Virus record (IMG/VR): IMGVR_UViG_3300010883_000001
Location: 1 to 64,000 of that record
Direction: 5' to 3' (one strand)
DNA from: a virus
Length of the DNA: 64,000 nt
In this document: one piece after another, positions 1-61,080 of the stretch
Layout: every line of letters begins with the position of its first letter
Numbering within the stretch: position 1 is the stretch's first letter
Translations under genes and position numbers: made by a program
The notes under the pieces: generated by a model
What the model saw: only the letters and a program-made list of their open reading frames with translations
Databases searched by the model: none
Told to the model about the DNA's origin: nothing

Positions 1-3000
1 AAGATAATTGTCGAAATTATGATAGCGTGTGCCTCAACATTATATTCACACTATCCATCATTGGCAGGTTCTACATCTGATATAATGTCCGGCCGGGCAA
101 GGCTCGGGTTACCTGGTCAGCTCCACGGCGCGACTCGTGGTGGCAAAAATGATACACTCGGCGTCGGCGTGCACTTTCGACGTATCGTTCATAATTTTAC
201 CGGTGAAGGAAGTAATGGAGATATAGGGTATGTGATGCCGGTATGTTCGGGATTTGTTGGCGATTCACTCCGTGCGCGCCCATTACGAGATTTCGTGAAT
301 AGCTATAGGTATCGCAAGTATCAACCTCGACATCCTCTAGCAAGGTGTGAAATATTATTATCGGCATTTGCACAAACGCTTAATTTATCATCGGCAACAG
401 CAAGGTTGTCACAGACGTCGGTGGGTATGAAGCATGGTGTCATGACCAACCAACCTCTTAAGCAAGTATTTGGTAAGGGATTGATGAATCAATTTGAGTA
501 CCACAAAAATAAGTGGATACGAAAAGAGATGAGGAAAAAATATAATGCCCATCGTGCACATACCCCGGGTAGTTCCCGCCGCGGCGATACTAATTTACAG
601 GTTGGAAGACAGACCATTCTTGATCAGTTGTTCGCCGTTATGGGTGGCGGCAGCAGTGACCATGGCCGTCAAGGGCAAGGTAATCCACCAATTGTACACA
701 TGTTTGAGACGCCAGGAACAATAAACAGGTCGACCTTTGATTCCGCCGATGCCAGGTCTGATTATACTGCAACAACCGCCTTTATAGAGGCACCAATGCG
801 ATTGTTTGACATGATAGATGATCGTGGTCATGATACATCTTCAACTAAAAAAATTCACGAGATTTTCTTTAATGAGCTTGAAGACATGAAAGAAACAAAT
901 GCTCAGGCCTTCGAGTATATTGAACAATTATTTAATTTCGCAGAAAAGACCGGTCTTCCTAATATTGACACAGTTGAATTGCTAGATGATGTGTTAGAGA
1001 TTGTCGAGTTTTGTGCGGGATCAATGGCGAGAGAGGGTGGTATAGGCATTGGCAAAAACTCCAGTACACTCGCCACATTACGAGACAGTAGTACTAGAGT
1101 TAAGAAACTTAGGGATGTGAATCGGGCAACAGCATCTAATAACAGCAATACTGCTATAATGTTTGAGATAGCGTTATTATGTCTGGCAAATACATGTGTC
1201 TTACCGCCGGGCGCCTTGTCCGGAGATACACATTCAAGTTCAAGATATGGTACCATTTTCACCGGATTGATAGTTACCGGGGGTAATATTCCTCAGTTTT
1301 CATTAGACTATATGTTGCTAGCAGCGCTTTTATTAGGGGGCTTTTCAGTAGAATTTGAAGGATATGGCGCCACGGCATTAGAATCAGTGGATGAGACCTT
1401 GGCTGCTGGTAACCGTGGTCACCTATACGGAAATGCCAATGTTGGTGCCGTCCAGGGTGAGGGTTCACTCACATATGTTAATGCTGAGGGTGACGAGAAT
1501 ACAAGAGATCAAGCTAGGTCTTTATCCAGGCAGTCCGGAAGAAGTAGGAGAAGATATATTGGTGGCACCGGAGGGGTGGCACAAGGTGATTCAGTATTCC
1601 GCAGAGACTATTCAGGGTATTCATCCCCATCACCGGGAAGCGAAGATGTTACCGATTATGTCCCCTCACCGATCGGTCATGAGTTAATCGTAGCACAGGG
1701 CACGAGTCTTGCTGCCGTTCGCCAGGATCTTAGAAACAAGTCTAATTCTTTTATGGAAAAAGTTAGTTTAGTGGGCCAGGTTCAACAAGGTGCTGATAGA
1801 TTCTCACTAGAGGGTGGCGCGACAGTTGACAATGCCAGAACCGCCGCGGCCCGGGCCAATCCGGACCTAGGTATGGGTGGTAATAGTAGTATTGTTGAAC
1901 AGGAAGTGAGTAATCGACTTACCAATGCTGTTGAGGGCGGCCCTACATCACCATACACTACGCAAGCTCAAGCCGCAGCATATTTTCTATCACGACAACC
2001 TGGTGATATTGGTTCTGATTTTAGTGTTGAGGCATCCGGTAACGTTGCGTGGTCATCATTTTTAGTATTGGCCGGCCTAATGCCTATGCCACTCTATCAA
2101 GAAGGTATGTATACTGATGATGAAGGTGATCATGTTAACCCTATTAAAAAAGAATTTGATAAGGTAACAGTAATAAAGAAATTAATTTCTATGTATAGTA
2201 CGTCAGCACTACAGGAAAACAATACAGTATTTGAAAAAATATTTAGTCTAGTTAGAAAATTTCAACGAAAGGCATTTGATCTTGCTGGTGGCACACAATA
2301 TTTTTCTATGGACGGAAAGACATTTGCTGGTGATATGCGTGATATGGAAATGCATTTATGCATATTGACGGTGATTGCCGGTCTGATTGACACATGTGTA
2401 CATGTTAGGATGTCATCACAGCCAATATTGGATCAGAGAAATTTAACAGCCGCCAGCTCAGTTAGCGACTGGACAGGTGGGGCCGATACAGTTTTTCGTA
2501 ATTTTCTTGATGGAAATGATGGCGTCTCACAGAATATGGTGGATAATGCGCACTTTGATCCGGACGCATGCCGTAAGTCGATGGATTTAATTCGCGCAAT
2601 AAGATCTAGTCTTCGTAGTGAAAATATAGGCGTTGATCTTTTCGGTCCGGATGGTATGAATGATATTGCCGTACAAGGTGTGAATAAGGATACGCCTATA
2701 GGCATTTTTGGTGTAAAGGCGGGTGAGTTTACAGATACAGCACTTAAGTTACAGATGCAATCTCAGATGACCATTTTCATCCCCGCATTGCTCAAAGCAG
2801 TGATAGAAATATATATAGAGTCGGCCGAGGCGGCAATATCATTACAAAGAGATATTCATATCGTTGCACACGGTGGTGATCCAACTGGTGAACACTCTGA
2901 AATATTTACGTTGGCAATGAGAAGATTATTACAGAAACCACTTGGGCGTATTGCACTTAAGAATTTATCATACTCACAGGCTCGTGTTGCGAGGATGAAA

Positions 3001-4494
3001 TTGCTCAGGGATTCTCCTTTAAATTCCTCATCCGGGCTTGAAACACATTCAGTAATTGGACAAAGTGAAAAATTATTTTTATTATCTGTAGTCGATGAAT
3101 TATTCCCACGCGGTGGTGATAGTACAATTATTACGATAGGGATCGAGAAGGGTACACTACGTGCCATGGAAGAAAATCAGTTAGGTGATAGATCTGGATC
3201 TGGTACTAGCGATATACAGTTTTATTTAGAGCTTGGATCAGAGTTTATGAAAGACAATCTTCCATCGCGACTAATTGCTGATAGCGCCTCTACTGGCCAA
3301 AATGCGCGCTACCATGACAGCCGGTACCGTTGGCAGACAATTCATGCTTATAACTCTGATCTGTCACAAATTCTTGAGATTAGAAAAATACAAAAACATT
3401 TACATTATGGTAGTGATCATGAAGAGATCAGTCTTGAGTCTGCATCAATTGATAATAGGTTTGTCTATAAGTTTAATACCAATATTTTCGTGACGCCATT
3501 AAGCTTTTATGATGTTAGGCCTAGCGAGGGAGATCCGGAAAGTATAATTCCAGGCTTTTGGCAGAATGAAGATGATCAGGTTTTGACTGATGAAAATATT
3601 GGTAATAATGGTCATGGCGGCCGTAGCTTACGTGATTGGGCACACAGAATAAAGTTTTGTGAAATAAATAGAAATGGGCAACCGGAGTATGCATTCGGTG
3701 ATGATTTGAAGTGGGTGAATCATATTGCTGGAGGTGCAGGCCAGGCTGACCAAGATAACCCAGCCCCCGGACTCCCTTCTAGTGAAGGTATACAATTGCT
3801 ACCTGGGCACTCTGAATATATCCTTACAACGATGGTACCTATTTTAAAAAGCTACGCAATCGGCCGGTTAATATCATTAATAGCAGGACTAGATTTTGAT
3901 TCATATGAGTATGAATGTATAGATCATACAGTAAAAGGCGAAGAAACTCGTGATTATATGGGCCCAGTTTTTGATGGGTTTGCGATGGGTATTTTAAGGG
4001 GATTATTATCACGTACAAAACTAACGTCCGGAATTCCTGACGCTGAAAAATTAATATTTTTTATCGATAACTTATTAGAGCCAATTGAAAACAATCCTGG
4101 GGTATTAAAGATAAAGACTCCGGCAAATAATGAAAATGAAATATCTGGTCTAGCCGCTGCTCTCAAATTTAGAGCGGCAAACATTGTAAATGCTGAAACC
4201 GGTGAAGTGGTTGGTCGAACGTTTATACAGGAAATTAAACAAGTTCATGCTCAAATAATGATGGCATTATCTAGGAGTATATTTCTAAACACGCTAGGAA
4301 GAGAAGAGGTATCATTAGCACCTTGTAGGTATGATAGAATATTTCATGTTGTAGTCCCTGGTCCAGCAATGATAAAGGTAACACTTTTAGAGAAAGAAAT
4401 GATGAAACAGAATTATTCAGAAGCAATCAATTTTGGTGACACGTTTAATGGCAATGATCTTAGATATTGCGTAAAATTAATTCGAGATCAGTAA
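1..4494 (+). CDS. Large unrecognised protein, probably virion-associated (5' end outside window)
   Basis: The reading frame is open from the first base of the window. The first in-frame ATG at 19 has no clear ribosome binding site, so the gene probably starts upstream and at least 1491 residues are present. I do not recognise a family. The protein is Gly/Ser/Asn-rich in the middle (roughly residues 450-650) and mixed helical elsewhere, with no signal peptide, evident membrane segment or catalytic motif. It lies just upstream of an FN3-like protein and other apparent virion proteins, all co-directional, so a tail, baseplate or internal virion role is inferred from position only. A large size with low-complexity segments fits phage structural or injected proteins. 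The existence of the gene is secure; its function is not. Confidence 0.6.
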   Translation, partial: KIIVEIMIACASTLYSHYPSLAGSTSDIMSGRARLGLPGQLHGATRGGKNDTLGVGVHFRRIVHNFTGEGSNGDIGYVMPVCSGFVGDSLRARPLRDFVNSYRYRKYQPRHPLARCEILLSAFAQTLNLSSATARLSQTSVGMKHGVMTNQPLKQVFGKGLMNQFEYHKNKWIRKEMRKKYNAHRAHTPGSSRRGDTNLQVGRQTILDQLFAVMGGGSSDHGRQGQGNPPIVHMFETPGTINRSTFDSADARSDYTATTAFIEAPMRLFDMIDDRGHDTSSTKKIHEIFFNELEDMKETNAQAFEYIEQLFNFAEKTGLPNIDTVELLDDVLEIVEFCAGSMAREGGIGIGKNSSTLATLRDSSTRVKKLRDVNRATASNNSNTAIMFEIALLCLANTCVLPPGALSGDTHSSSRYGTIFTGLIVTGGNIPQFSLDYMLLAALLLGGFSVEFEGYGATALESVDETLAAGNRGHLYGNANVGAVQGEGSLTYVNAEGDENTRDQARSLSRQSGRSRRRYIGGTGGVAQGDSVFRRDYSGYSSPSPGSEDVTDYVPSPIGHELIVAQGTSLAAVRQDLRNKSNSFMEKVSLVGQVQQGADRFSLEGGATVDNARTAAARANPDLGMGGNSSIVEQEVSNRLTNAVEGGPTSPYTTQAQAAAYFLSRQPGDIGSDFSVEASGNVAWSSFLVLAGLMPMPLYQEGMYTDDEGDHVNPIKKEFDKVTVIKKLISMYSTSALQENNTVFEKIFSLVRKFQRKAFDLAGGTQYFSMDGKTFAGDMRDMEMHLCILTVIAGLIDTCVHVRMSSQPILDQRNLTAASSVSDWTGGADTVFRNFLDGNDGVSQNMVDNAHFDPDACRKSMDLIRAIRSSLRSENIGVDLFGPDGMNDIAVQGVNKDTPIGIFGVKAGEFTDTALKLQMQSQMTIFIPALLKAVIEIYIESAEAAISLQRDIHIVAHGGDPTGEHSEIFTLAMRRLLQKPLGRIALKNLSYSQARVARMKLLRDSPLNSSSGLETHSVIGQSEKLFLLSVVDELFPRGGDSTIITIGIEKGTLRAMEENQLGDRSGSGTSDIQFYLELGSEFMKDNLPSRLIADSASTGQNARYHDSRYRWQTIHAYNSDLSQILEIRKIQKHLHYGSDHEEISLESASIDNRFVYKFNTNIFVTPLSFYDVRPSEGDPESIIPGFWQNEDDQVLTDENIGNNGHGGRSLRDWAHRIKFCEINRNGQPEYAFGDDLKWVNHIAGGAGQADQDNPAPGLPSSEGIQLLPGHSEYILTTMVPILKSYAIGRLISLIAGLDFDSYEYECIDHTVKGEETRDYMGPVFDGFAMGILRGLLSRTKLTSGIPDAEKLIFFIDNLLEPIENNPGVLKIKTPANNENEISGLAAALKFRAANIVNAETGEVVGRTFIQEIKQVHAQIMMALSRSIFLNTLGREEVSLAPCRYDRIFHVVVPGPAMIKVTLLEKEMMKQNYSEAINFGDTFNGNDLRYCVKLIRDQ

Positions 4495-4532: not shown

Positions 4533-6743
4533 ATGTCAAATGAGACGATAATATTCGACGTAGAAGACCCTATAATACCACCACAGATAACATTCGTGTA
4601 TAACTACTACGTTACCGATGAGAAAAAATCATTAGAGTCTATGGCTAGCCCTGGTACATTCATTGTAGACAATGGGGGATTAAATAACGAGAACCGATTC
4701 GCAGATGGGGCATTACCACCTAGGTTTGTTCGTATTAGATTTAAGTTCTGCCGCGGCCCACATCAAGCAGTAGTAAGAAATCAAGGAAATAATATATTCA
4801 TGAATTTCGAAACCGGTGCTATGATGACAACAAAGGAGATATTACGAGATTTTGATATACGACTACCAGAGACCGCCCTTAATTCTGGTCGTTCAAATCC
4901 GGTGAGATTTCAAGGTCTTTTAAATAAGAACAAATATGGCGCCGCATCCCAACCCCAGATTAAAACAGAAGGTGAGATATTGTCACCAATAATGTCAGCA
5001 AATTCTGTCTCAAAAGATAATAGGCGATTAATCTTAAGATTACAAGATTTAATTAAGGATTTGCATATGGATATGCTAGACGGTGAGTATGACGAGACTT
5101 CATATTCATCATCGTCTGATATGGCTGATTTTATATCTAATAATACCGGTACGGACATTGATTCATATACAATAAAATCTATATTATCTGATTTTAACTC
5201 TGGAGGAATAGAGCTAGAGAGGGAGTCAAGCTCCCAAAGAATGTCAAGAGAAATCTCTGACAACCCTTCAAATTCAAAGGTTGTAGGCGTAGTTGATAAT
5301 AGAGTTATTCGTGATATGAATAATAGGCCAGTGCGTATGAATATAGATAAAAAACACCAGCTTGATATTATGAACATATCTGTTAAGTGTGTTGGTGCAT
5401 TGAGTCCAATTACATATGATCATAATTATTTTTTAGCTTGTAAAGAAGCACAGAATGATGCAGCGTCGTTATCACCTCTAAGTGCTGCAAGGTTTGGTTC
5501 ACTAGCAGATCAGATGATGACTAGTGCAATAATCTATGAACCACCGTATAATGAAAACAGTGGTGGTGCACTCATAAATATAACGGAAGACTTTAACCTA
5601 AATGATTTATCACAAATTGTCTTGGTAGGTCATGTAGTAGAGAAGTTTAGAATAGAGAGCGGAGGTAAGAAAGTACCTGTAGAATCTTTATTATTTATGA
5701 ATGATTATGATGTTCATGAGGCTGCCAATCGACCTGAGATAATTTTTAATGATACGAAGGTTAGGTACGGTGATAAATACTCATATCAATCTAGGTATTT
5801 ATATTGTGTTAGAATTTTAGATGTTGACATAAATGATGCAGCCAGTGGAAAAACCACATTAAAGAGTTTTCTCGTTATGTCTAGAGAATCAGAAGATGCG
5901 ATTGTAGCATGTGAAGAGTTTACCCCGCCACCTCCCCCAACAGTAATGAGATTTCGTTTTGACTATACAAATGAACGGGGATTGATAATGTTCTGGCAAA
6001 TACCTCGTAATAACCAGGAAGATATTGTAAAGTACCAAATATTCAGAAGAAAGACTATCTTTGAACCATTTGAGTTAATTAGGGAAGTAAACTTTGATAA
6101 ATCAATAATAAAGACGCCCTCCATGGAATATGTTAGGGATGATCTTATCTCATATCATGATCGTCATACGGTTTTATTCAAGGATGAGGATTATACTCGT
6201 AATGATAAATACATATATGCAGTCTGTTCAATAGATGCACATGGGTTTACTAGCAATTATAGTCCACAGACGGAGATTAGTTTTGACAGGGATAATAATA
6301 AGCTTTCTAGAAAGACGATATCAAATATTCCTTGCCCCAAACAGTATCCTAATCTGTATATTAATCCAACGGACGCCGGCGTTGCTTCTTCACCAAGGAT
6401 AACTGAAGATGTTATGAAAATATCGGGATTCGATACAATGAGAATATATTTTGACCCTGAATATGTTTTTCTAGACAGTGGTGACGGTCGACAATTAAGA
6501 GATCGACAATTAATTGCATTTGCACCGGGTACTACATCTGAGCTAGCAGCAACAACAAATATTGGGAATTATAAATTCCAGATAATTAATACTGACAGAC
6601 AGAAAGTAAAAAACATTACTATGAAAATAGGTGTTGATGAGGATAATAACCTTGGAGGCGTTTCAGGGCGTATATTAAGTGCTAGACGCGCGTTTGATAC
6701 TGAACTGAACGACAGTCCGGGAGGTAATAGCACAAGAGCTTAG
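4533..6743 (+). CDS. Virion protein with fibronectin type III-like domain
   Basis: 736 residues. The start is ATG at 4533 with GGAG about ten bases upstream. After a proline run (PPPPPT) near residue 466, a segment to about residue 580 reads like an FN3 domain: alternating beta strands, a Trp on one strand (MFWQIP), a VKYQIFRRK strand, and a late strand KYIYAVCSIDAHG. FN3-like domains are common in phage tail, baseplate and fibre proteins, where they mediate protein or surface contacts. The N-terminal two thirds resemble nothing I can name. The gene sits between a giant partial gene and a small conserved structural gene, supporting a tail or adhesion role. No chaperone gene or collagen-like repeat was seen next to it. 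Confidence 0.6.
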   Translation: MSNETIIFDVEDPIIPPQITFVYNYYVTDEKKSLESMASPGTFIVDNGGLNNENRFADGALPPRFVRIRFKFCRGPHQAVVRNQGNNIFMNFETGAMMTTKEILRDFDIRLPETALNSGRSNPVRFQGLLNKNKYGAASQPQIKTEGEILSPIMSANSVSKDNRRLILRLQDLIKDLHMDMLDGEYDETSYSSSSDMADFISNNTGTDIDSYTIKSILSDFNSGGIELERESSSQRMSREISDNPSNSKVVGVVDNRVIRDMNNRPVRMNIDKKHQLDIMNISVKCVGALSPITYDHNYFLACKEAQNDAASLSPLSAARFGSLADQMMTSAIIYEPPYNENSGGALINITEDFNLNDLSQIVLVGHVVEKFRIESGGKKVPVESLLFMNDYDVHEAANRPEIIFNDTKVRYGDKYSYQSRYLYCVRILDVDINDAASGKTTLKSFLVMSRESEDAIVACEEFTPPPPPTVMRFRFDYTNERGLIMFWQIPRNNQEDIVKYQIFRRKTIFEPFELIREVNFDKSIIKTPSMEYVRDDLISYHDRHTVLFKDEDYTRNDKYIYAVCSIDAHGFTSNYSPQTEISFDRDNNKLSRKTISNIPCPKQYPNLYINPTDAGVASSPRITEDVMKISGFDTMRIYFDPEYVFLDSGDGRQLRDRQLIAFAPGTTSELAATTNIGNYKFQIINTDRQKVKNITMKIGVDEDNNLGGVSGRILSARRAFDTELNDSPGGNSTRA

Positions 6744-11397: not shown

Positions 11398-11961
11398 ATG
11401 AAAATACTCGGTTTAGATATATCAACTAGTTGTACCGGCTTTTCCGTAATTGATAACACACCTTCAGGTATGAGATTGATTTCTTTATCTAGCGTAAAGT
11501 TATCAAATGAGAAAAGTCGATACAATAAAGCCATACTAGTTCGTACACATATAGAGGATCTTCATAAAAGATATAAGATAGATAAGGTTTTCATTGAAGA
11601 GAATCTACAGGCATTCCGTCCTGGGTTTTCATCAGCAAAGACTTTATTAACATTAGCTAGATTTAATGGTGTTGTTTCATTCTTATGTGAGTCGATTGTG
11701 GGAGTATCTCCAGTATTCCTAAACGTAACAAAAGCAAGAAAATCAGTAGGCTGCCAGATTAAGCGTGCAAAAGTAGTCGGTGTAAGTACTAAGGAACAGG
11801 TCTTTGAGTTTGTAAAGAACCATTCAGAGGCTAGTAAGTATCAGTGGCCAATGAGAACCATTACCCGAGGTCCCCGGGCCGGACAAGTCATCTATGCAGA
11901 TGAGTGTTTTGACATGGCTGATGCATTTGTAATCTCGTTAGCTGGTTGCCTGTACAATTAG
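11398..11961 (+). CDS. RuvC-like Holliday junction resolvase
   Basis: 187 residues with an RNase H-fold RuvC pattern: Asp7 in the first strand (ILGLDIS), Glu68 in VFIEEN, and the C-terminal acidic pair Asp172/Asp175 in DMADAF. These are the metal-binding positions of RuvC-type nucleases that cut four-way junctions. Phage versions resolve recombination intermediates and trim branched DNA before packaging. The gene starts three bases after the stop of the adhesin gene, with no strong ribosome site, suggesting translational coupling. It is followed by primase and SbcDC genes, forming a DNA-processing island inside the virion genes. A related transposase-like or Cas-like RNase H role is unlikely given the short length. 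Confidence 0.8.
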   Translation: MKILGLDISTSCTGFSVIDNTPSGMRLISLSSVKLSNEKSRYNKAILVRTHIEDLHKRYKIDKVFIEENLQAFRPGFSSAKTLLTLARFNGVVSFLCESIVGVSPVFLNVTKARKSVGCQIKRAKVVGVSTKEQVFEFVKNHSEASKYQWPMRTITRGPRAGQVIYADECFDMADAFVISLAGCLYN

Positions 11962-11984: not shown

Positions 11985-12953
11985 ATGCATTCTTTATCCG
12001 ATAGACGCCGGCTGTTAGAGCGGGCGTTCGGGGGCACATCACTGTCCAGTGACGGCATCAATATAGCTGTATCATGCCCGAAGTGTGCAAAAGATAACCG
12101 GAAGAAAAAATTAGTTATTCGAATTGATGATGGCCGATATCATTGTTGGGTTTGTGGTCTTAAGGGAAAAAATATTGTTAATCTTTTTGAGAGATATAAA
12201 CAAGGGTTAGTGAATGATGCTAAGAGATGGGCAGACTCCGCCGGCATTAGACGATCAAAAAGTACTTACGACAATGAAAAAAAAGAAAATATAGTAAATG
12301 CACCTAATGGGTTTATGTTATTGGCACTATGTCAAAATAGTAGAGATCCGGATGTTAGAGAAACATTTCAATATGTTCGAACACGTGGCGTTAGCATTTC
12401 TAATATGTGGCATTATAGACTGGGGACATGTAAGACTGGAAAATATAGACGAAGGGTTATAATACCTTCTTTTGATGTTGATGGAGAGTTAAATTATATT
12501 ACAGCGAGATCAATTGACGATAGTAGGATACCAAAGTATCTAAATTCAAAGGTTCCAAAAACCGATATTATAATAAACGAAATTAATATTGATTGGAAAG
12601 AAGAACTAACTTTGGTTGAGGGACCATTTGATTTATTAAAGTGTAATCTAAATGCGACCTGTTTGTTAGGTTCTTATCTTTCTCAGAAAAGTGCATTATT
12701 TACTGAAATCGTAAAAAATATGACGCCAGTTTTATTGGCACTTGATCCGGACGCCGACGAAAAATCTCATAAGATTGCCAGAGATTTATATAGTTTTGGA
12801 ATTGATATTAGAATGGCAAAAATAATTAAGGGAGATGTAGGTGACATGTCATTATCGGAGTTTGATGAGATAAGGAGTAAGGCCGGTGACTGGTCAGATA
12901 TAACCTATCTACAATCAAAGATACGTTCGATAAAGACGGGTTCACTGATTTAA
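11985..12953 (+). CDS. DNA primase (zinc-finger plus Toprim)
   Basis: 322 residues. An N-terminal zinc site is formed by CPKC (31-34) and CWVC (54-57), the CHC2-like finger that reads template in DnaG-type primases. The Toprim domain shows EGPFD at 212-216 and the acidic DPDAD at 254-258, which bind the metals used for primer synthesis. It is shorter than bacterial DnaG and lacks a helicase-binding C-terminal domain, as expected for a phage primase that works with a separate DnaB-type helicase (59650). It fills the T4 gp61 role although it is unrelated in position. The start is ATG at 11985; a ribosome site is not obvious. It is followed after 3 bases by the SbcDC gene. Confidence 0.85.
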   Translation: MHSLSDRRRLLERAFGGTSLSSDGINIAVSCPKCAKDNRKKKLVIRIDDGRYHCWVCGLKGKNIVNLFERYKQGLVNDAKRWADSAGIRRSKSTYDNEKKENIVNAPNGFMLLALCQNSRDPDVRETFQYVRTRGVSISNMWHYRLGTCKTGKYRRRVIIPSFDVDGELNYITARSIDDSRIPKYLNSKVPKTDIIINEINIDWKEELTLVEGPFDLLKCNLNATCLLGSYLSQKSALFTEIVKNMTPVLLALDPDADEKSHKIARDLYSFGIDIRMAKIIKGDVGDMSLSEFDEIRSKAGDWSDITYLQSKIRSIKTGSLI

Positions 12954-12956
12954 TAT

Positions 12957-15900
12957 ATGGGTTTTAAATGCGCACATATTAGTGATATTCACTGGAGAGG
13001 TTTAAAAAGACATGATGAATATCGATATTCATTTGGTAAAATGTTTGAGGAGCTTGAGGAGTTGGCTCCTGACGCTATATTCATTGGAGGTGATATTGTT
13101 CACAACAAGACACAGGGGATATCACCTGAGTTAATTGACAATCTTACATGGTGGTTTAGATCACTAGCGGCAATTGCACCTACACATATAATCTTAGGGA
13201 ATCATGATGGTTTAATCATGAATTCTCATAGACAGGATGCTATAACACCAATAATAAATGCAATAAATTCAGACAACCTAATTTTATATAAAGACTCAGG
13301 AACATATCCTATACGAGATATTCCTGGATTTAATTGGTGTGTTTTTTCATGTTTTGATACTGAGAACTGGGATAACGTTTTACCTATTAAGGATGAAATA
13401 AATATTGCCGTATATCATGGTTCTGTTGTTGGATCAAAGACTGATACCAATTGGGAGCTTGATGGTGAGGTAGATGCTGAGTTTTTTAGTGATTTTGAGT
13501 TTGGTTTTTTAGGTGACATTCACCAATACCAGTTTGTCAATGAAGAAAATACAATAGCTTATCCAGGTTCAACAATTCAACAGAATTATGGTGAATCACC
13601 AGAGAAAGGTTTCTTATTTTGGGATATAGAAAATTCTAATGAATTTACTGTAGATTTTCATCCGGTAAAAAATCTTAGACCACATATTACCATCAGGTGG
13701 AATGGCACTGTCAAAAATACAATTGCACGGATTGATAATGCTGTTAATGGTGCCAGATACAGGGTTAAAATAAAGGGGCCGATATCACAAGCAGAGATAA
13801 GACAGTTGTATGCTGCTTTACGTGATTATCACGATGCATATGAAGTAGTTCTAAAACATGAAGAGATGGAGGGATCAAGTCTCTTATGCGCTGGCTTAAC
13901 TGAATTTGAGAAAGAGAATTTAAGGGATATATCTACACAGAAAAAAATATTACGACAATTTTACTCTGCCGAAGATTTAAGTGACGAAGTACTTGAAGCT
14001 TTAGATTTGATGTTATCAAAATACCTATCACAGGCGTCAAAATCAGATGTAGTTAGGAATGTAAAGTGGTCAATAAGAAATATCGAGTTTGAAAATACTT
14101 TTGCCTATGGTAAGGGAAATTTTATAAATTTTGATAATCTACGTGGTATTACTGGGATATTTGGTCAAAATAGAGCTGGAAAATCTTCAATTCCTGGAAC
14201 ATTAATGTTTAATCTCTTTAACACATCTGATAGAGGATCACTATCCAATTTACATATTATAAACGCTAGAAAAGGTCATTGTTTAAGTAAGGCAAACATT
14301 AGTGTAAATGGAAAATCTTTTCTTATAGAGAGAAATGCTAATAGATATGTCTCTAGATCAGGCGTACAGAGGGCAATAACATCATTAAATTTATTTGAGA
14401 TAGATAAAGAAGGAAATATCCTAAGCGATTTGAATGGTGAACAAAGAAGAGACACTGAAAAAACCTTAAGAAAGATGGTGGGAACACCCGATGATTTTCT
14501 ATTAACATCTTTAGCTAGCCAGGGTGATATGGGCAACTTTATAAAGTTTAGAGGTACCCAAAGAAAAGCAATACTTACGAAGTTTTTAGATCTATGTGTA
14601 TTTGATGACATGTTTGATCTGGCAAAAGCTGATTCTTTAGAGCTTAAGGTACTATTAAAAGATGTACCTGACCAGGATTGGGATTTGATGATATCAACAA
14701 TATCTGAAAAACTCACAGACGTACATCTTAAGCGAGAAGAAACTGATAATATGTTGCTAAAGAAGAGATCTGATCTAAGTGAATTAAGAATATTACTAGC
14801 CTCAGACTCAAGTTCTAACTTAGTAACGGAATCCGACATAAGTAGAAAGAATAAAGAAATTGAAGAAGCAAAAGATTGCAACCTGAGATTAAATGATGAA
14901 TTAAATCAAAATGAAGCTCAGTTAACAGACATGCAAGAAAAAGTTAATTCGTTAGTATCATTAAAGAGTGATTTTCCTATTGAAGAGTTAAGAAAAAAAT
15001 ATTCCTCACAGCTTGACTTAGAAAAAAATCTTAATAACCTAAAAAATACTTTAGTGAATGAAAGAGATGATCTTCGGCGAAAGAAGAAGTCGTTAACTAT
15101 ATTAAGTGATGTACCATGTGGCGATAAATTTCCAACATGTAAATTTATTAAAAATTCATATGAAAATAAGCAGAAAATTCCAGATCAGGAGTTATTAATA
15201 AATGATCTGATTAAAAAAGTTTCGTTAGCAAAACGCACGTTATCTTCCTTAGGGAGGAAGAATTTAGCTGAAAAAATTGAAAAATACAACTTAATTCTAA
15301 AGAAAGAATCTAGTTTATTAGAAGCACTATCAGATCTAAAGCTTCAGAATGCTTCACTAAAAAATAAGCTGCAGCCAAGTAACGAAAACATTGATATACT
15401 AATCTTGGATTTAGAAAAACTTCAGATAAATGTATGCACAGGAGATGAGGCCGATCGGATATCTAGGGCAAAAGACATGATCTTTGTAACAGAACGTGGA
15501 GTTATGGATTTAGATGCATCCCGAATAAGCCTGGCTGAGAGTGCAGCTAGATTAGAGGTTGAGATTTCAAAAGCAAGAAATGATCAAAAAAAATATCATG
15601 AAATAAGCTCACAGTGGAAAGTTTTTGATTTATTTTTGAGAGCTGTTTCGAAAAAAGGTATACCTCTACAAATAATCTCTTCATTGTTGCCAAGTATTAA
15701 TACGGAGATTTCAAAAATACTACAGACTTCCGCCGGTTTTACTGTTGAGCTAGAATCATCACAAAGTTCAAATGATATAGAGATTTATATAAACTATGGT
15801 GATTCTAGGCGTGTAATAGAGGTGGCTAGTGGGATGGAGAAAATGATGGCTTCTCTTGCTATTCGTGTTGCATTAATTAATATTACAACACTTCCAAAAT

Positions 15901-16100
15901 CTGATATGCTAATTATAGATGAAGGTTTTGGTGCTTTAGACGATGTAAATGTAGAGGTATGTAGTCGATTACTTGAATCACTTAAACAATGGTTTAAGAA
16001 TATAATAATAATTTCTCATGTAGATTCAGTAAAAGACGTAGTTGATGATGTCATAGATATAACGAAAAAAGGTAAGGATTCTCTTGTTTATGTCAAATAA
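12957..16100 (+). CDS. Single-chain SbcD-SbcC (T4 gp47-gp46) recombination nuclease fusion
   Basis: 1047 residues uniting both subunits of the Mre11-Rad50 type complex. The N-terminal ~350 residues are a calcineurin-like phosphoesterase: SDIH (Asp10, His12), GGDIVHNK (Asp46), GNHD (82-84), YHGS (His154) and GDIH (186-189). The remainder is a Rad50/SbcC ATPase: Walker A GQNRAGKSS (403-411), long coiled coils, a hook with Cys721 and Cys728 (CX6C), a SGMEKMM signature near 957, and a Walker B IIDEGFGALDD near 985. The complex processes DNA ends for recombination-dependent replication and, in T4, degrades host DNA. In T4, T5 and bacteria the subunits are separate genes; here one uninterrupted frame encodes both. 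The stop overlaps the next small gene. Confidence 0.9.
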   Translation: MGFKCAHISDIHWRGLKRHDEYRYSFGKMFEELEELAPDAIFIGGDIVHNKTQGISPELIDNLTWWFRSLAAIAPTHIILGNHDGLIMNSHRQDAITPIINAINSDNLILYKDSGTYPIRDIPGFNWCVFSCFDTENWDNVLPIKDEINIAVYHGSVVGSKTDTNWELDGEVDAEFFSDFEFGFLGDIHQYQFVNEENTIAYPGSTIQQNYGESPEKGFLFWDIENSNEFTVDFHPVKNLRPHITIRWNGTVKNTIARIDNAVNGARYRVKIKGPISQAEIRQLYAALRDYHDAYEVVLKHEEMEGSSLLCAGLTEFEKENLRDISTQKKILRQFYSAEDLSDEVLEALDLMLSKYLSQASKSDVVRNVKWSIRNIEFENTFAYGKGNFINFDNLRGITGIFGQNRAGKSSIPGTLMFNLFNTSDRGSLSNLHIINARKGHCLSKANISVNGKSFLIERNANRYVSRSGVQRAITSLNLFEIDKEGNILSDLNGEQRRDTEKTLRKMVGTPDDFLLTSLASQGDMGNFIKFRGTQRKAILTKFLDLCVFDDMFDLAKADSLELKVLLKDVPDQDWDLMISTISEKLTDVHLKREETDNMLLKKRSDLSELRILLASDSSSNLVTESDISRKNKEIEEAKDCNLRLNDELNQNEAQLTDMQEKVNSLVSLKSDFPIEELRKKYSSQLDLEKNLNNLKNTLVNERDDLRRKKKSLTILSDVPCGDKFPTCKFIKNSYENKQKIPDQELLINDLIKKVSLAKRTLSSLGRKNLAEKIEKYNLILKKESSLLEALSDLKLQNASLKNKLQPSNENIDILILDLEKLQINVCTGDEADRISRAKDMIFVTERGVMDLDASRISLAESAARLEVEISKARNDQKKYHEISSQWKVFDLFLRAVSKKGIPLQIISSLLPSINTEISKILQTSAGFTVELESSQSSNDIEIYINYGDSRRVIEVASGMEKMMASLAIRVALINITTLPKSDMLIIDEGFGALDDVNVEVCSRLLESLKQWFKNIIIISHVDSVKDVVDDVIDITKKGKDSLVYVK

Positions 16101-41345: not shown

Positions 41346-44300
41346 ATGGCTGAAGGTAATGATGGTGGACAGCTAGGTGCGGCAATGTCCATTAATAAGG
41401 TTCTTCAAGAAAGAACAGCCCTTTTAGATAAACAATCAAATGTCTTATCTTCTCAAGTTAAGATTGCCATGGAGTTGTGTAAGGCTCTAGAGTGTAAAGA
41501 TCTAGATGGCATGATTGATCGTGTCAATGATATTAATGATTCCCTTAAAAAGAGTTCAAAAGAAGCTAAGAAGATGGGTAAAGATACCCAAGGCGCGCTC
41601 AAGAAGACGGGCAAACAGGCCGATAAGACAAAATTAAGTACAAGCTCAATATTTAGTAAACTCACGCCCTCCGCCGGCGCAGCCATGGGTGCAATATTTG
41701 GTTTCGGCAGCGCACTTAAAGGTATCGGTGGATTAATATCTGCCGGTGTTAAAGGTGTCTTTAGTCTTGTTTCATCATTCTTCAAGCTAGGCGCCACCAT
41801 TGTTATGGTCCCATTTAAAATGTTGTCTGGCCTTATAGGGATGGCTCAAGAAGAAATGAGTGGCAGCAACGGTCTACGTGACGCAATAGAAGAAGTGCGT
41901 GATGCATTTGGTAGCCTGACAGAAGCTACTGGTGGAAAATTCATGGCTTCCATGAACCATATGAGACAGACCGCTAGTAATCTTGCCGGTTCAGGTCGGT
42001 CACTAGCCAGCATATATGGCCATGGCCCAGAAGGCATTGCTAATGCGTTCAAGGACAATCTTGAGTTTACCAAGGCTCTCGGAGGTGCCTATGATGAGCT
42101 AGCGCAGACACTCGACAAAAAAGCACTAGCGAAGTTCGTCATATATAGAAAAGCACTCGGTTTGACAGGCGAATCACAGGCTGCAATTCTTAAACAGGCA
42201 ATGAATTTAGGCGAAGATCCTGTTAAGGCCATGGCCAAATTCGGTGCAGCAGCAACAAGGATGTCCAAGGCGACAGGGGTTGCAGTAAAAAATATTACGA
42301 AGGCCATGTCTGAGATGATTGAGGAGGTCGACAGTTTTGGTGTTATGGGACCGAATGCAATGTCTGCCGTTGCCGCCTGGTCAAACAAAACAGGCGTCGA
42401 AATTAAGACACTAGCGTCAATTACAAATAAATTCTTAAACTTTGAGGATGCTGCTGAGTCCGCGGCAAAGTTGAACCAGGCGTTGGGAATGAACGTCGAT
42501 ACAATGAAGTTGATGAAAGGTGGTACAACCGCTATTGAGGAGCTGAATAGATCTTTTAAGGCACAAGGAAAGACACTTAAAGATCTATCGGTTGCAGAGA
42601 GACAAATGATTTCTAATGCAACCGGCCTACAGGGTGCCCAACTTAGCGCCGCACTTGGTGAGAAAACCAAGAAGAATGAGATGAAGAAATTCAATAAGCA
42701 AGCCAGGATGCAACAAAAGATATTGGTTAATCAGGAAAAGCTTATTAAGAAACTGGGCAAGATGATAAAGAAGACGTTTGGCCAGGGTAGCAAACAGTTT
42801 AAAGGATTTTTTGATGCGTTTGTGAAGGGCGTTGAGCGTGGTGTTAAAAGATCACAACCAATGCGAAAATTGTTTCGGAATATAACAAGATCTTTATGGA
42901 TGACCCATAGGGCCGGCCGAAAAGTTGGTAAGGATTTCGTAAACTTCTTCCCCGGGTTTAAGCAGTTTATAAAGGGCCTTCAAGAATTCTTTAGTCCAAA
43001 GTCATTTAAGCCAATGCTGGGCGAGGTTGTGTCTGCCTTTAAGGATTTCTTTAAGATGCTGGATAAAGATCCGGATGCCAGTTTTGAGATGTTTTTTGAT
43101 AGAATAAAGAAGGCATTTCTGAAATTTTTTGGTGGAAAGGGTGGTGCCGTAGACAACGTAAAGTCGGGTGGATCAAAAATACTCAAAGCATTTGGGCAAA
43201 TATTTAAACATCTGTTAATCAAGGCCGCCGAAGGTGTGGCATTCCTTCTGAATAAGTTGGCAGATCTGATAGAGAATCCGGCCCCGCTAGTGACGGCTGC
43301 CAGTAAGGCGTGGAACACTCTAGCAGATGCTTTTGGTAGAATATGGGAGATACTCATTACCAAGATTGCCCCCCCACTTGGCCGGGCCTTTGAGAGATTA
43401 TTCACAGTAATAGGAAAAAAACTAGGTAGCTCTGGTGTTCTTAAAAAAGTCTTTAGCGTATTGGCCAAAGTTTTCATCGCTAAATTGATGCTATCAATGT
43501 TAGCCAACGCGATAAAGGGTGGCCTTGTAATTACAATAGGTAGGAAGATTGCCTCTTTTCTTGCCATGGCAATGACCCCTAAAGTCCCGGGTCCAGTTAC
43601 GGGATTTTGGACAACTTTATTTACTCAAAGTGCTACCACATCGACAGCTGCAGCCGCAAACGCAAAAGCTCCTGTCGCTCTAGGTATTGCCGGCATCCAA
43701 AAGATAATACCTTTTATATTGGCCTTAGCACTTTTGATTCCTGCGGTATATGTTCTTTATCAGGTTGCAAAGTCAATGAAGTCTTCTGCGATTGCAAAGA
43801 CTGCATTACTCATGGCCGCCGTTGCCGGTATGGCTGTTGCCGTCGCCGCCACTGCATACGCATTAACTACAGTAGCTGCATCACCCGCAGAGACGGCCCT
43901 GGCTGGCGTGCCTAAGATGGCAATGGTGATGGCAGGCGTCGGCGTCGTGGCCCTAGCAATAGTTGCCCTAATGTCTACGTTGCCGAAGATAGAAACGTCT
44001 GTTATTGTTGCATTTGTGGCAGCGATGTTGGGAATGGTCCTGGGGGCTATACCAATATACATGGCCGCCGTCGCGATGGGGACGGTAACAATGGCATCCG
44101 GAGGCCTGGATCAGGCAGCATTGGTTGCTGGCCTATGGACATTAACAGCAGTGATGGCCGTTGTTGGTCTTTTAGGTGTAGCCATGGTCGCATCAATGAG
44201 TATGTTCTCCAAGGATTCTGCTGAAAAGACAAAGAACATTATGGGTCCATTAGCCTCATTACTAGCGGTGGTTGGTCTGACCCTAATTCCTGCAATATTA

Positions 44301-46862
44301 ATTGCGGGTATAGCATCCGCGGGAATACTTGGAGCTATTGCTTTGGTGGCCGGTCTCGGTGCACTAGCGATCGTCTTTGATGCAATTGTAGGTGAGGGTG
44401 GTGTGGCCGAGAGGATGGTCAAGTTAGCAGATTTAAAGGTTGGAAATCCTGGTAATTTTAAGCAGGTTGTTGAGGGTATATCTGCTGGAATTAAGGCCGG
44501 TGCATGTCTGATGATGGCATTGGCTGAGATAATTGACCAGGCAGATGACTTTGCCGATAATCATGAAGAGATGGATATGATCCTAGGTCATATGAAAAAT
44601 CTCATTGATGCAGTCTTGAAAAATGGGATTGTTTCGATTGTTGACAAGTTGGCAGAGTTAGCAAAGATAAAAGATATTAGCTCTGAGGCCGGCCCAGCAA
44701 TTCGAGCCATATCAGGCGCAATTAATGCTTCAGCTGCGATGATGAAGGCAGTGCAGTTTCCAAAAGAGATGTTCTCGATGATCGAAGAGTTAGATGACCC
44801 GGACATGATAAATCAGGTCTTTACCAAAATGCTAGCCCACCAAAAAGCTGTTTTTGACACGATGACAAAGAAAGATGGCTTGCTTGATGTTGTTATCGAT
44901 AAATTTATGTCTCCAGAATTTACCTCTCGCCTCAGCAAGATTCCGGAACCAGAGAAGGTTGCAAAGCTCATAGGTGGTCTTTCTAAGATGATTGGTACCG
45001 TCATGAAGATTGGTTCCGCATTTTCGATGAACCCCCAAGAGGCTAGCGTATTGAATAAGTTGACGGAGGAGGATGATGATGAGACCCTGGACGCAATAAA
45101 GGCACTGAACGATCGTCAAGATAAAATGATGCAGAATATGCCGGCGATGCTAACAGTAATGATGGATGGTGTCAAAGGCATGGTCACAGAACTGGGTCCA
45201 ATTTTCAAAAAAATAGAGACCTTCTCAGGTTCAACTGAAAAAATGCAGGCCGGTGGTTCTATTATTTCGGCTGTCATGTCTGGAGCGGCAGCGGTTTTAG
45301 GTGCGGTAGTTCAGGCCGTGGTACCAATTATTGATATGCAAAAGAGTATTGTTTCAAAGCAGAAAGGCCCGCTAGCTGCAGCGCAGCAGGGCAGTAGTTT
45401 CAAGTTATCCAAACTCATGGGTCCCATAAGCAATCTAATGACCGATGTTTTGGGTGCCATTAATAATCTAGATCTAACAAAGATGTTCAAGGGAATTATG
45501 GAGGCCGTATCGATCCCAACTGCCTATACTACACGAATTGAGGCTGCTGCAAAGCTATTGGGTCCGATCGTGGGTATGATAGGAACAATAATCCAGGCAA
45601 CAAGCCAGTTGGCTACTACATTTTTAAAGAATAATACTGAAAAATTCGCGAAAGATGTTAGCAAAAAGAAAGATGCTGCCGGCAATGCAATAGATGCAAC
45701 CAAGTCTACCGGTGATAGTGTAAAGCACATAATGGGATCTATAGGTGAAATATTTAAGCAAATTGATGTGGGTCCAGCCATTAAATCAGCACTCGCTGCA
45801 GCAAGGGGCTTGGGTAAGAGTAAGGGCGCTCTTAAAAGTGTCCAGACGATAACCGGTCTAATGGCCGCTGTAATGAGTATGATATCAGGTATAGCAGGGG
45901 TCTTATCAGCAAGTGAAGATGCTGTCAAGGATTCTCCGGCATATACAAATGCCAAACGTTTGCTTGATTATAATGAGGATTCATGGGAGAAAACGTACAA
46001 AACCGCAAGTCACTCCCAAGGGGCAGCATATGTGGCAACCAAGGCCAAACACTCAGAGAAGATGGCAGACCTTCGTAAAGCGGCAATTGAGGATTCCGTT
46101 CCCAGAATAACGAGGTCGATGGAAAAAATGGGCGGCTTGATGAAGGCCGGCGGCCCGATCGATAAGATGATTAAGGGGATTTCGGATAAAGATGGTATCG
46201 GTGCGATTCCAAAAAATATTGTTCAACGGACTGCAAACCTGGTTGCGATAATGACGGATATGGGCAAGTTGATGCAGGTAATGGGTGATGAGAAAATGGC
46301 CGCGGCACTTACCAAAGGGGCAGGTGGCACTACGAAGCTGGAAGCCAATGCCAAAATGCTGAAAGATGGAATAACGAGAAGCGTGGTCAACGATATCTTG
46401 CGGGTAGGAAAGAATATCAAGAAACTGGGCAGCCTAGGGGTGACGGAGAAGAACGTAAAGGCAATGAGCCAGATGTCTATAGCGTATCTTGAGGCTGCAA
46501 AACTGGGTAGTGATATCAACACCTTTAATAATCCTGGTGATAAGATAAAAGAGGTAGGCATAGCTATTTCTGAGGGTGTGACCACATTTAACAAGATGTA
46601 TGGAATTAAGAAGGGTGGCCTTAAGGCTGTGTTAGACATTGCAAAAGCATTAAACACAAATGGTTCACTCACTATTAAGCATGATGTAACTGACAAGATC
46701 CAGATTGAGGTTAACGTTAAGCTGGATGCAGAGTCTGTTGCCGCCGCCGTCAGTAATACTAAGGCTGGAAAGGCTAGCACCCCACAATCCAGTGCGGCCG
46801 GACCGAAGAAGAAGGTAGCCAGTAAATCTAAGAGATCGGCCGTTGCCTCAAAGACGCAATAG
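41346..46862 (+). CDS. Tape measure protein
   Basis: 1838 residues, the largest gene here, following the chaperone as expected. It has long Lys/Ala-rich helices at both ends and Gly/Ala/Met-rich hydrophobic stretches at residues ~105-165 and ~720-1030, some long enough to be membrane-spanning (FILALALLIPAVYVLYQV), typical of tape measures that are ejected with the DNA. No lysozyme or peptidase domain was recognised. By the usual ~0.15 nm per residue it could specify up to ~275 nm of tail. T4 gp29 is 590 residues. The start follows CGGAG. Confidence 0.88.
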   Translation: MAEGNDGGQLGAAMSINKVLQERTALLDKQSNVLSSQVKIAMELCKALECKDLDGMIDRVNDINDSLKKSSKEAKKMGKDTQGALKKTGKQADKTKLSTSSIFSKLTPSAGAAMGAIFGFGSALKGIGGLISAGVKGVFSLVSSFFKLGATIVMVPFKMLSGLIGMAQEEMSGSNGLRDAIEEVRDAFGSLTEATGGKFMASMNHMRQTASNLAGSGRSLASIYGHGPEGIANAFKDNLEFTKALGGAYDELAQTLDKKALAKFVIYRKALGLTGESQAAILKQAMNLGEDPVKAMAKFGAAATRMSKATGVAVKNITKAMSEMIEEVDSFGVMGPNAMSAVAAWSNKTGVEIKTLASITNKFLNFEDAAESAAKLNQALGMNVDTMKLMKGGTTAIEELNRSFKAQGKTLKDLSVAERQMISNATGLQGAQLSAALGEKTKKNEMKKFNKQARMQQKILVNQEKLIKKLGKMIKKTFGQGSKQFKGFFDAFVKGVERGVKRSQPMRKLFRNITRSLWMTHRAGRKVGKDFVNFFPGFKQFIKGLQEFFSPKSFKPMLGEVVSAFKDFFKMLDKDPDASFEMFFDRIKKAFLKFFGGKGGAVDNVKSGGSKILKAFGQIFKHLLIKAAEGVAFLLNKLADLIENPAPLVTAASKAWNTLADAFGRIWEILITKIAPPLGRAFERLFTVIGKKLGSSGVLKKVFSVLAKVFIAKLMLSMLANAIKGGLVITIGRKIASFLAMAMTPKVPGPVTGFWTTLFTQSATTSTAAAANAKAPVALGIAGIQKIIPFILALALLIPAVYVLYQVAKSMKSSAIAKTALLMAAVAGMAVAVAATAYALTTVAASPAETALAGVPKMAMVMAGVGVVALAIVALMSTLPKIETSVIVAFVAAMLGMVLGAIPIYMAAVAMGTVTMASGGLDQAALVAGLWTLTAVMAVVGLLGVAMVASMSMFSKDSAEKTKNIMGPLASLLAVVGLTLIPAILIAGIASAGILGAIALVAGLGALAIVFDAIVGEGGVAERMVKLADLKVGNPGNFKQVVEGISAGIKAGACLMMALAEIIDQADDFADNHEEMDMILGHMKNLIDAVLKNGIVSIVDKLAELAKIKDISSEAGPAIRAISGAINASAAMMKAVQFPKEMFSMIEELDDPDMINQVFTKMLAHQKAVFDTMTKKDGLLDVVIDKFMSPEFTSRLSKIPEPEKVAKLIGGLSKMIGTVMKIGSAFSMNPQEASVLNKLTEEDDDETLDAIKALNDRQDKMMQNMPAMLTVMMDGVKGMVTELGPIFKKIETFSGSTEKMQAGGSIISAVMSGAAAVLGAVVQAVVPIIDMQKSIVSKQKGPLAAAQQGSSFKLSKLMGPISNLMTDVLGAINNLDLTKMFKGIMEAVSIPTAYTTRIEAAAKLLGPIVGMIGTIIQATSQLATTFLKNNTEKFAKDVSKKKDAAGNAIDATKSTGDSVKHIMGSIGEIFKQIDVGPAIKSALAAARGLGKSKGALKSVQTITGLMAAVMSMISGIAGVLSASEDAVKDSPAYTNAKRLLDYNEDSWEKTYKTASHSQGAAYVATKAKHSEKMADLRKAAIEDSVPRITRSMEKMGGLMKAGGPIDKMIKGISDKDGIGAIPKNIVQRTANLVAIMTDMGKLMQVMGDEKMAAALTKGAGGTTKLEANAKMLKDGITRSVVNDILRVGKNIKKLGSLGVTEKNVKAMSQMSIAYLEAAKLGSDINTFNNPGDKIKEVGIAISEGVTTFNKMYGIKKGGLKAVLDIAKALNTNGSLTIKHDVTDKIQIEVNVKLDAESVAAAVSNTKAGKASTPQSSAAGPKKKVASKSKRSAVASKTQ

Positions 46863-57498: not shown

Positions 57499-58686
57499 AT
57501 GGCAAAACAAAAAGGAAGTGTTGCTCAAGATTTCACAAATGATTTAATCAAATCTTTGAATAAAGAGCACGGATCCAGAGTTGCGTATAATCTTGCTTAT
57601 GATGAGTCTCCTACACATGTCAAAAGATGGATATCAACTGGATCAAAGCAGTTAGACTACATTATATCTAATAGGTCAGGTGGTGGGTTACCTGAAGGGA
57701 GGATCGTTGAGATTTTCGGTCCTCCTTCTATAGGTAAGTCACATATCGCAATTCAGATCGCGAGATCAACCCAGAAAAAAGGGGGAATTGTTGTATATAT
57801 TGATACTGAAAATGCTACATCAGTTGAAAATCTAGGACTATTAGGTGTTGATATTTCTAAGAGATTTGTGTATGTTGATACCCATTGTACTGAAGAAGTA
57901 CTGTCCATTGCCGAAGCAACAATTATGAAAGCAAAAGCAATGGATAAAGACGTACCAATTACTATAATCTGGGATTCAGTTGCTGCATCTTCTCCAAAGG
58001 CTGAGTTAAATGGTGATTATGATCAAAACTCTATTGGATTACAAGCTCGAGCTATTTCTAAAGGGATGAGAAAGATTACCGGTATCATTGCAAATCAAAA
58101 CGTTTTGCTGGTTTGTTTAAATCAAATAAGGACAAAGATTGGTGTGATGTTTGGTGATCCTACCGTAACCCCGGGGGGAAAGGCCATACCATTTCACTCT
58201 TCCGTTAGAATCAAATTGGGTGCAGGCCAGAAGATTGAAAATAAGGATAAGGAAGTAATAGGAATACATGTATCAGCTAAGACAATAAAGAATAAAGTTG
58301 CTCCTCCATTTCGGGCATGTAATTTTGAGATCCATTTTGGGAAAGGTATATATGAGCATGAACAAGTTTTTGATATTTTGAGAAAGCATGGAAAAGATAT
58401 CATCGGTGAGTATGAAGTAGAGGTTGGTGGCACTAGCGCATGGAAGACATTGATTGTTAATGATCCAAAAACAGGTGAAGTTATTTTAGAGAAGAAGTTC
58501 TATAAATCTGAGTTTGGTGATTTGATGAAAAATCCTGAGTATTCTCATTTTATTGATGGGTTATTGGAAAAGACACTTGTTCGAGAGATTAACAGCGACT
58601 TCACAATGAATATCGACGTTGAGTCTTATGAAGAGGTAAGATCAGTTGCCTTACATCTCAATGAAGAAATAATTGATCCAGAGTGA
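57499..58686 (+). CDS. RecA/UvsX-type recombinase
   Basis: 395 residues. Walker A is GPPSIGKS (74-81), Walker B ITIIWDSVAA (about 155), and the DNA-binding loop region is NQIRTKIGVMFGDPTVTPGG, then HSSVRIKL, which is closer to bacterial RecA than to T4 UvsX. A DTENATS adenine-side motif is present. It promotes strand exchange and recombination-dependent replication with SSB and the SbcDC fusion. The C-terminal ~100 residues are a phage-specific extension without recognisable motifs. GAGG upstream of the ATG. Confidence 0.93.
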   Translation: MAKQKGSVAQDFTNDLIKSLNKEHGSRVAYNLAYDESPTHVKRWISTGSKQLDYIISNRSGGGLPEGRIVEIFGPPSIGKSHIAIQIARSTQKKGGIVVYIDTENATSVENLGLLGVDISKRFVYVDTHCTEEVLSIAEATIMKAKAMDKDVPITIIWDSVAASSPKAELNGDYDQNSIGLQARAISKGMRKITGIIANQNVLLVCLNQIRTKIGVMFGDPTVTPGGKAIPFHSSVRIKLGAGQKIENKDKEVIGIHVSAKTIKNKVAPPFRACNFEIHFGKGIYEHEQVFDILRKHGKDIIGEYEVEVGGTSAWKTLIVNDPKTGEVILEKKFYKSEFGDLMKNPEYSHFIDGLLEKTLVREINSDFTMNIDVESYEEVRSVALHLNEEIIDPE

Positions 58687-59649: not shown

Positions 59650-61080
59650 ATGTCAGAAAATTCAGAAATTAATTATAGTGAGACATTTGTATCAAACGAT
59701 TCTTTGTTTTCAAATTATGGAAAGCAGTTTCAGGAAAAGATATTCCAAGGACTGATGTCAGACCAGCGCTGGGCAACCCAAATGTTTGAGGTAATGGCTA
59801 GTCACTATTTTGATGTTAAGTATCTTTCTTATCTTTGCGAAAAATATTTTAGTTATTATGAAAAATATCGTTGCTTTCCTACCATGGGATTACTTGTATC
59901 AATAGTCAAAGATGATCTATCTGAAGAGTGTGACTTAATTCTTCGAGATCAGATTGTTGAGTATCTTCATAGAATTAAATCAAACCCATCAGCCGGTGAT
60001 ATTGAGTATGTAAAAGACAAATCGCTGGATTTTTGTCGGCGCCAGGCATTTCGTGGTGCATTAGAAAAAGCTGTTGATCTTATTTCTACAGATAATTTTG
60101 ATAGTGTTGTAGGTCTTATGAAAGAGGCAGTTGCCGTAGGGATTCCAAGCTCTGTTGGTCACGATTTTTTTAAAGATGCTGAAGCAAGATTTGTGAAAAT
60201 TAATAGGATGGCATGCCCGACGGGGATAAAGCGATTAGATGCAAAAGACATATTACAGGGTGGTCTAAGTCGCGGTGAGATTGGTGTAATAACTGCCAAC
60301 ACAGGTGTTGGTAAAAGCCATTTTTTAGTTGCCCTAGGCGCTAATGCAATGAAACTAGGAAAAAATGTATTACATTATACATTTGAATTATCAGAACATT
60401 CGGTTGGTTTAAGGTATGACTCGAATTTATGTGGTATACCAAGCAACGAGATCATAGATAATAAAGATAAAGTCTTAAAAAGATATGAAGATGAAGATCT
60501 TGGGAGATTAATAATAAAAGAGTACCCCACAGGTTCAGCATCCATTATCACGTTAAGAAATCATATAGAAAAATTAGCTTTTAAAGGTTTTAAGCCGGCT
60601 GTAGTTTTGGTTGATTATGCTGATGTTATGAGATCAACTAGAAATTATGATTCACTTAGACACGAATTGAAGTTAATATATGAAGAACTTAGGAATATGG
60701 CAATGGAACTGAACATCCCAATCTGGACTGCGTCACAAGCAAATAGGGAATCTGCTAAGTCTGATGTTGTAGGCCTAGAAAATATGAGCGAGGCATATGG
60801 GAAAGCAATGGTTGCTGACGTTGTCTTATCTCTTTCTAGAAAACCTATGGAAAAATCGACAGATTCCGGTAGATTATTTGTTGCAAAGAACCGCGCGGGC
60901 CGTGATGGTTTACTGTTTCCAATACGCATTGATACTGCTAGATCTGTTATCGAGATTCTAGATGAAAATAGTATAACGTTACAGGAAGCCGTATCACAAG
61001 ATGAGTCTAGTATGAAAACAATGTTAAAGAAAAAATGGGCTGAGGTTCAGGAGTTAAGTTCGTCTATACAGGCAGGGTGA
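59650..61080 (+). CDS. Replicative DnaB-type helicase (T4 gp41-like)
   Basis: 476 residues. An N-terminal helical domain is followed by a RecA-like motor: Walker A TGVGKS (218-223) in VITANTGVGKSHFLV, FELSEHS, Walker B VVLVDYADVM, a SQANRES motif, and a C-terminal FVAKNRAGRDG arginine-finger region. It unwinds the fork 5'-3' as a hexamer and should work with the primase at 11985. The start follows directly on the stop of the nuclease gene. No separate loader (gp59) was found in the window. Confidence 0.92.
   Translation: MSENSEINYSETFVSNDSLFSNYGKQFQEKIFQGLMSDQRWATQMFEVMASHYFDVKYLSYLCEKYFSYYEKYRCFPTMGLLVSIVKDDLSEECDLILRDQIVEYLHRIKSNPSAGDIEYVKDKSLDFCRRQAFRGALEKAVDLISTDNFDSVVGLMKEAVAVGIPSSVGHDFFKDAEARFVKINRMACPTGIKRLDAKDILQGGLSRGEIGVITANTGVGKSHFLVALGANAMKLGKNVLHYTFELSEHSVGLRYDSNLCGIPSNEIIDNKDKVLKRYEDEDLGRLIIKEYPTGSASIITLRNHIEKLAFKGFKPAVVLVDYADVMRSTRNYDSLRHELKLIYEELRNMAMELNIPIWTASQANRESAKSDVVGLENMSEAYGKAMVADVVLSLSRKPMEKSTDSGRLFVAKNRAGRDGLLFPIRIDTARSVIEILDENSITLQEAVSQDESSMKTMLKKKWAEVQELSSSIQAG

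Follow-up and report, generated by a model that had tools for sequence, protein, structure and literature searches.

A single-chain SbcD-SbcC fusion of an already known kind is conserved across many uncultivated phages

One open reading frame of an uncultivated virus appears to encode both SbcD (Mre11) and SbcC (Rad50), and the question raised by this locus is whether such a chain is genuine and, if so, whether it works as the two separate proteins do. The window analysed here covers the opening 64 kb of an IMG/VR virus record that is 145 kb long. The frame starts with ATG and runs for 1047 codons with no internal stop, such that both domains lie in a single uninterrupted polypeptide, as a preliminary description of this DNA had claimed. 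Its parts are as follows.

12957..16100, plus strand: fused SbcD-SbcC (Mre11-Rad50) gene (ORF, Pfam, PHROG, structural model)
12957..13676, plus strand: phosphoesterase (nuclease) domain, residues 1–240 (Pfam Metallophos, alignment of relatives, fold match)
13683..13859, plus strand: capping domain, residues ~243–301 (secondary structure of the model; match to 7dog, SbcD nuclease and cap, over residues 2–301)
13896..14045, plus strand: helical segment, residues ~314–363 (model helices 314–319, 325–335 and 343–363)
14046..14066, plus strand: linker of ~7 residues, 364–370 (model, structural comparison)
14067..14594, plus strand: Rad50 ATPase N-lobe, residues 371–546, with Walker A (403–410) and Q-loop Q522
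14595..15647, plus strand: coiled-coil arms, residues 547–718 and 729–897 (model helices)
15111..15140, plus strand: coiled-coil apex with C721-X6-C728 (putative hook)
15648..16097, plus strand: Rad50 ATPase C-lobe, residues 898–1047, with SGMEK (958–962), D988, E989 and H1021

The nuclease active site and all of the Rad50 ATPase motifs are intact, in keeping with the earlier view that both domains are complete, and every motif named there is found where it had been placed. SDIH, GGD, GNHD and GDIH lie at residues 9–12, 44–46, 81–84 and 186–189, respectively, and Walker A (GQNRAGKS) at nt 14163–14186; the ATPase also has the SGMEK signature, a Walker B ending in D988-E989, and the H-loop histidine H1021. 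Walker A and the Q-loop are parted from the signature, Walker B and the H-loop by the coiled coil, as in the SbcC/Rad50 ATPase. Profile searches recover Metallophos at residues 4–159 (8e-11, Pfam), PHROG_77, a phage SbcC family, over residues 327–1043 (2e-46), and SMC_N at residues 374–1038 with a value (1e-8) that falls under Pfam's curated cut-off. The 145-kb record, which may be incomplete, holds one SbcC and one Metallophos match, both within the fused frame, and a search of it revealed no stand-alone gene for either protein.

We built a structural model from 46 aligned sequences, in which the protein was predicted as a single chain (mean pLDDT 84; pTM 0.50, the latter no surprise given the long coiled coils). 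In comparisons of this model with known structures, residues 1–301 align with SbcD/Mre11 nuclease and cap structures (Z 24–25), and residues 371–1047 align with SbcC/Rad50 heads, starting from residue 1 of the latter (Z up to 28.9) and including the DNA-bound heads of E. coli SbcCD. Since the first match ends at 301 and the second begins at 371, the join is placed at ~364–370, at the far end of the 350–370 range given before. The helices at ~314–363 stand at the position of the Rad50-binding helix-loop-helix of Mre11. Because the structural matches barely cover this stretch, we take it as a putative helix-loop-helix of that type from its position and helix pattern, with the Thermotoga Mre11/Rad50 complex discussed in PMC3175470 as the source of the assignment.

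Relatives were collected by a profile scan of viral contigs, from which the best 80 of more than 500 were taken, and by a second scan. With loci from later scans counted in, both domains lie in one frame, in this order, at 187 IMG/VR-type loci (some on the same contigs). Seventy-eight distinct full-length fused proteins, the window protein included, make up the aligned set; identities among the representatives compared are 22–50%, and one relative, a protein of 1066 aa (WWT39521), comes from an isolate, Microcystis phage Mel-JY01. D10, H12, D46, N82, H83, H154, D187, H189 and the ATPase motif residues are invariant in an alignment of 61 sequences, and invariant or nearly so overall. Seven of the eight residues of the metal-binding and catalytic set (D, H, D, N, H, H, H, H) are identical, the exception being the first histidine of motif V, which is aspartate (D187). 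A search for plasmid relatives found no match in the scan, and bacterial genomes gave four weak or partial matches in one scan. The fusion is real and conserved across many uncultivated phages.

A stop or frameshift between the two parts, or close relatives with split genes, had been named as grounds for doubt. We find no clean break at the SbcD/SbcC junction; two candidates for a split there, L163 and L246, proved to be frameshifts or truncation. Separately, the 735-kb phage record LR756501, which contains the fused locus L003, has a second SbcC-family match at 670999–672753 (record coordinates) that is stronger than the one at its fused gene and has four in-frame stops within the matched stretch.

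The genes around the fusion, and others used below, are these.

11398..11961, plus strand: RuvC-like resolvase, an upstream neighbour (Pfam PF02075, PHROG_159)
11985..12953, plus strand: primase-like gene, with its end 3 bases upstream of the fused gene (PHROG_47)
57499..58686, plus strand: UvsX/RecA-type recombinase (PF00154, PHROG_97)
59650..61080, plus strand: DnaB-like replicative helicase (PF03796, PHROG_19)

A T4-type terminase, portal, major head protein and tail sheath, all encoded within the window, mark the carrier of the fused gene as a T4-type contractile-tailed phage. By terminase, its top cultured relative is Flavobacterium phage immuto (L108), which has an exonuclease of 260 aa after its primase; no match was obtained when the immuto genome was searched for SbcC, and not every member of the wider group therefore carries the fused gene. 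Two further long frames of the window lack profile matches: 19–4494 (1491 aa; no PHROG or Pfam match) and 41346–46862 (1838 aa; no PHROG match).

We consider that this is most probably (at roughly 0.88) a natural one-chain SbcD-SbcC of a T4-type phage that would work like split SbcCD and do the job of gp46/gp47, a reading based on sequence, the predicted structure and analogy. Three other explanations have to be weighed against it. An assembly or sequencing artefact could have joined two neighbouring genes, and in other phages that have SbcD and SbcC as two genes these do often touch or overlap (by 20 bases in Vibrio phage PG07), so that a single indel could fuse them. This reading is, however, ruled out for practical purposes by conservation in 77 distinct full-length relatives, which keep the join at a nearly constant length: the distance between the anchors R269 and W371 is 99–105 residues in 78/78 fused sequences. 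In an ATPase-half tree, 25 fused sequences also form one clade against 7 split ones (support 97/88), in a comparison that has few split proteins and some long branches and leaves Mimivirus out. Alternatively, the protein might be made fused and function as two, through an internal start or proteolysis near residues 350–370. The window protein has a methionine at residue 352, and proteolytic cleavage would be invisible in sequence. Nevertheless, that position is methionine in just 5 of the 78 proteins, and a start codon preceded by something like a ribosome-binding site occurs in the join (335–372) in only 2/78, more rarely than in control windows (9%), which agrees with the earlier remark that the join carries no restart signal. 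We regard this second explanation as very improbable.

It is somewhat less improbable, though still unlikely, that fusion alters the mechanism, with the tethered nuclease gated differently or the protein serving another role such as counter-defence. The stability of the fused lineage suggests some advantage, and the substitutions in the metal site and hook could change activity; the aspartate at the first motif-V histidine and the non-canonical hook spacing are also what we count against our preferred reading. Against an altered mechanism, every working element of split SbcCD is found here too, with its order and fold unchanged, and the motif-V aspartate is found in split SbcD of Vibrio phages too. 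Nothing indicates a different catalytic mechanism in the fused protein.

If the protein does work like split SbcCD, two chains would pair via their nuclease domains and ATPase heads to form an M2R2 head, in which ATP binding and hydrolysis would alternately admit DNA ends to the nuclease and shut them out. By analogy with SbcCD and T4, the enzyme would resect ends, leaving 3' single-stranded tails that the phage UvsX could use in recombination-dependent replication together with the DnaB-like helicase and the primase-like gene. Host DNA might perhaps be degraded too, as by gp46/gp47 in T4. Fusion would fix the stoichiometry and link the two genes.

One feature that varies within the fused group is the apex of the coiled coil. 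The canonical Rad50 hook is CXXC. It is not present in the window protein, which has C721-X6-C728 instead; across the aligned set CX6C is found in 40/78 sequences, CXXC in 38/78 and both in 0/78. The motif of the CX6C clade, encoded at 15111–15140 of the window and in its relatives, is VPCGDxFPTCKFI, and the sister clade has CXXC. Those CX6C members that are in the ATPase tree group together on a single branch within the fused clade. L043 and L044 have CXXC, though L043 nests within the CX6C clade. Each of the seven split SbcC proteins looked at, six from phages and one from E. coli, has CXXC. A literature search for CX6C together with hook and Rad50 returned no paper using the term CX6C, an absence which proves little.

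A second source of variation is a break inside the nuclease domain of some relatives. Of the ORFs returned by a scan selected by the CX6C DNA pattern, and not by fusion state, 42 are fused, 28 are truncated at contig ends and 7 fall in neither group. Six of these seven begin at about residue 200, inside the nuclease domain and immediately past GDIHKxQ, with a nuclease fragment just upstream. When further scans are included, the break after GDIHKxQ is found at 15 loci (11 distinct sequences), plus the partial locus L129. The split loci include the following.

L180:1420-4715, split locus
L052:4385-7665, split locus
L107:3304-6544, split locus
L128, L145, L147, L236, L238, L239, L270 and L129: further split loci

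The upstream piece ends in a conserved acidic tail, for example REVELEIDEADLSNHPGAEVIG, with a net charge of -3 to -10, and the downstream piece starts with a conserved basic stretch, for example MSKRIRIRTKKPWIGYPG; at the same site, fused members of a related clade carry a short stretch such as LGYREDSKGKKKPWISYPG. In the fused protein L134, GDIHRTQ and YSGS are separated by 44 in-frame residues that look like an acidic tail followed by a short head. At L002:3965-8190 (LR756508, a 484-kb phage), an ORF at 4686–5603 lies between the pieces; it has a TnsA-like endonuclease domain and zinc-ribbon-like cysteines and is a possible homing endonuclease. L129 has an 83-codon ORF in this position, and at most other split loci the pieces overlap or nearly adjoin. 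A search for an intron at the split sites of L002, L052 and L107 gave no Rfam match, and one for the acidic tail peptide in phage records likewise gave no match.

Split and fused states are scattered and need six changes on two (quick) trees; in the input to one of these a single L002 residue was altered for pattern matching, with other results unaffected. Clean splits do exist among relatives, but only inside the nuclease domain and never at the SbcD/SbcC boundary, and on the sequences they look secondary, apparently gained or lost repeatedly. We infer that the split pieces are held together by their acidic and basic tails. A broader proposal for this lineage, to which we would give rather less than even odds, is that CX6C represents a new geometry of the dimerisation hook, that a mobile insertion repeatedly cuts the nuclease hairpin, and that the acidic C-terminal and basic N-terminal tails extend this beta-hairpin and so rejoin the pieces.

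The statement that known phage and bacterial systems use two genes was mistaken. Mre11/Rad50 fusions were described by Yoshida, Claverie & Ogata (2011, PMC3175470) in Mimivirus (R555), bacteria, plasmids and several eukaryotes, as well as in Bacillus phage 0305phi8-36, and the best matches of our model among the predicted viral structures in BFVD are giant-virus and Tenacibaculum phage proteins, mostly longer than the window protein, which align with it over at least 1300 columns. The same authors found that the domain order and short linker of the fusions fit the Thermotoga Mre11/Rad50 complex, that the fusions are not monophyletic, and that a separate SbcC/SbcD gene is absent in Mimivirus and the Bacillus phage; they also reported homologues to be abundant in aquatic viral metagenomes and argued that these were possibly phage-borne (PMC3175470). 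The window protein is a SbcDC fusion of this kind, known since 2011, and the finding itself is therefore fairly ordinary.

Its overall interest is modest. It corrects the view of phage SbcCD as always two genes, and fusions whose abundance in aquatic viruses was predicted in 2011 are now tied to many phage contigs, the window contig linking the gene with a T4-type terminase, portal and replication genes. As a single polypeptide, such a protein might serve as a handy model for studying how Mre11-Rad50 is gated. Specialist attention is best directed at the variant hook and at the secondary splits, which pose small, testable questions on hook dimerisation and protein reassembly.

Among known systems, the fusions of the Mimivirus R555 type resemble the window protein in domain order, in the short linker and in having aspartate for the first motif-V histidine (at the position of His206 in Pyrococcus Mre11; PMC3175470). 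They differ in length (1351 aa for R555 versus 1047 aa) and in that the window protein sits in a T4-type phage and has CX6C in its clade; the best match in the model library, a Tupanvirus protein, is 22% identical. T4 gp46/gp47 and other split phage SbcCD share the same domains and a presumed role in recombination-dependent replication, but T4 uses two separate genes where the window phage has one, and its motif V is GHFH rather than GDIH. E. coli and T4 both keep the first motif-V histidine, whereas the split SbcD proteins of two Vibrio phages have aspartate, as the window protein does. The E. coli SbcCD heads (6s6v, 6s85, 7yzo and 7yzp) have the folds of both halves but consist of two chains and carry a CXXC hook. 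For the split relatives, the nearest parallel is NrdA of phage Aeh1, a gene left in pieces after insertion of a homing endonuclease, as is known from T4-type phages (PMC2988022; see also Crona 2011, as cited in PMC3267527). This is a different gene, and the likeness concerns the relatives, the window copy being intact; in both cases, however, the break falls within a conserved active-site region, and in one of the split relatives an endonuclease-like ORF lies between the pieces.
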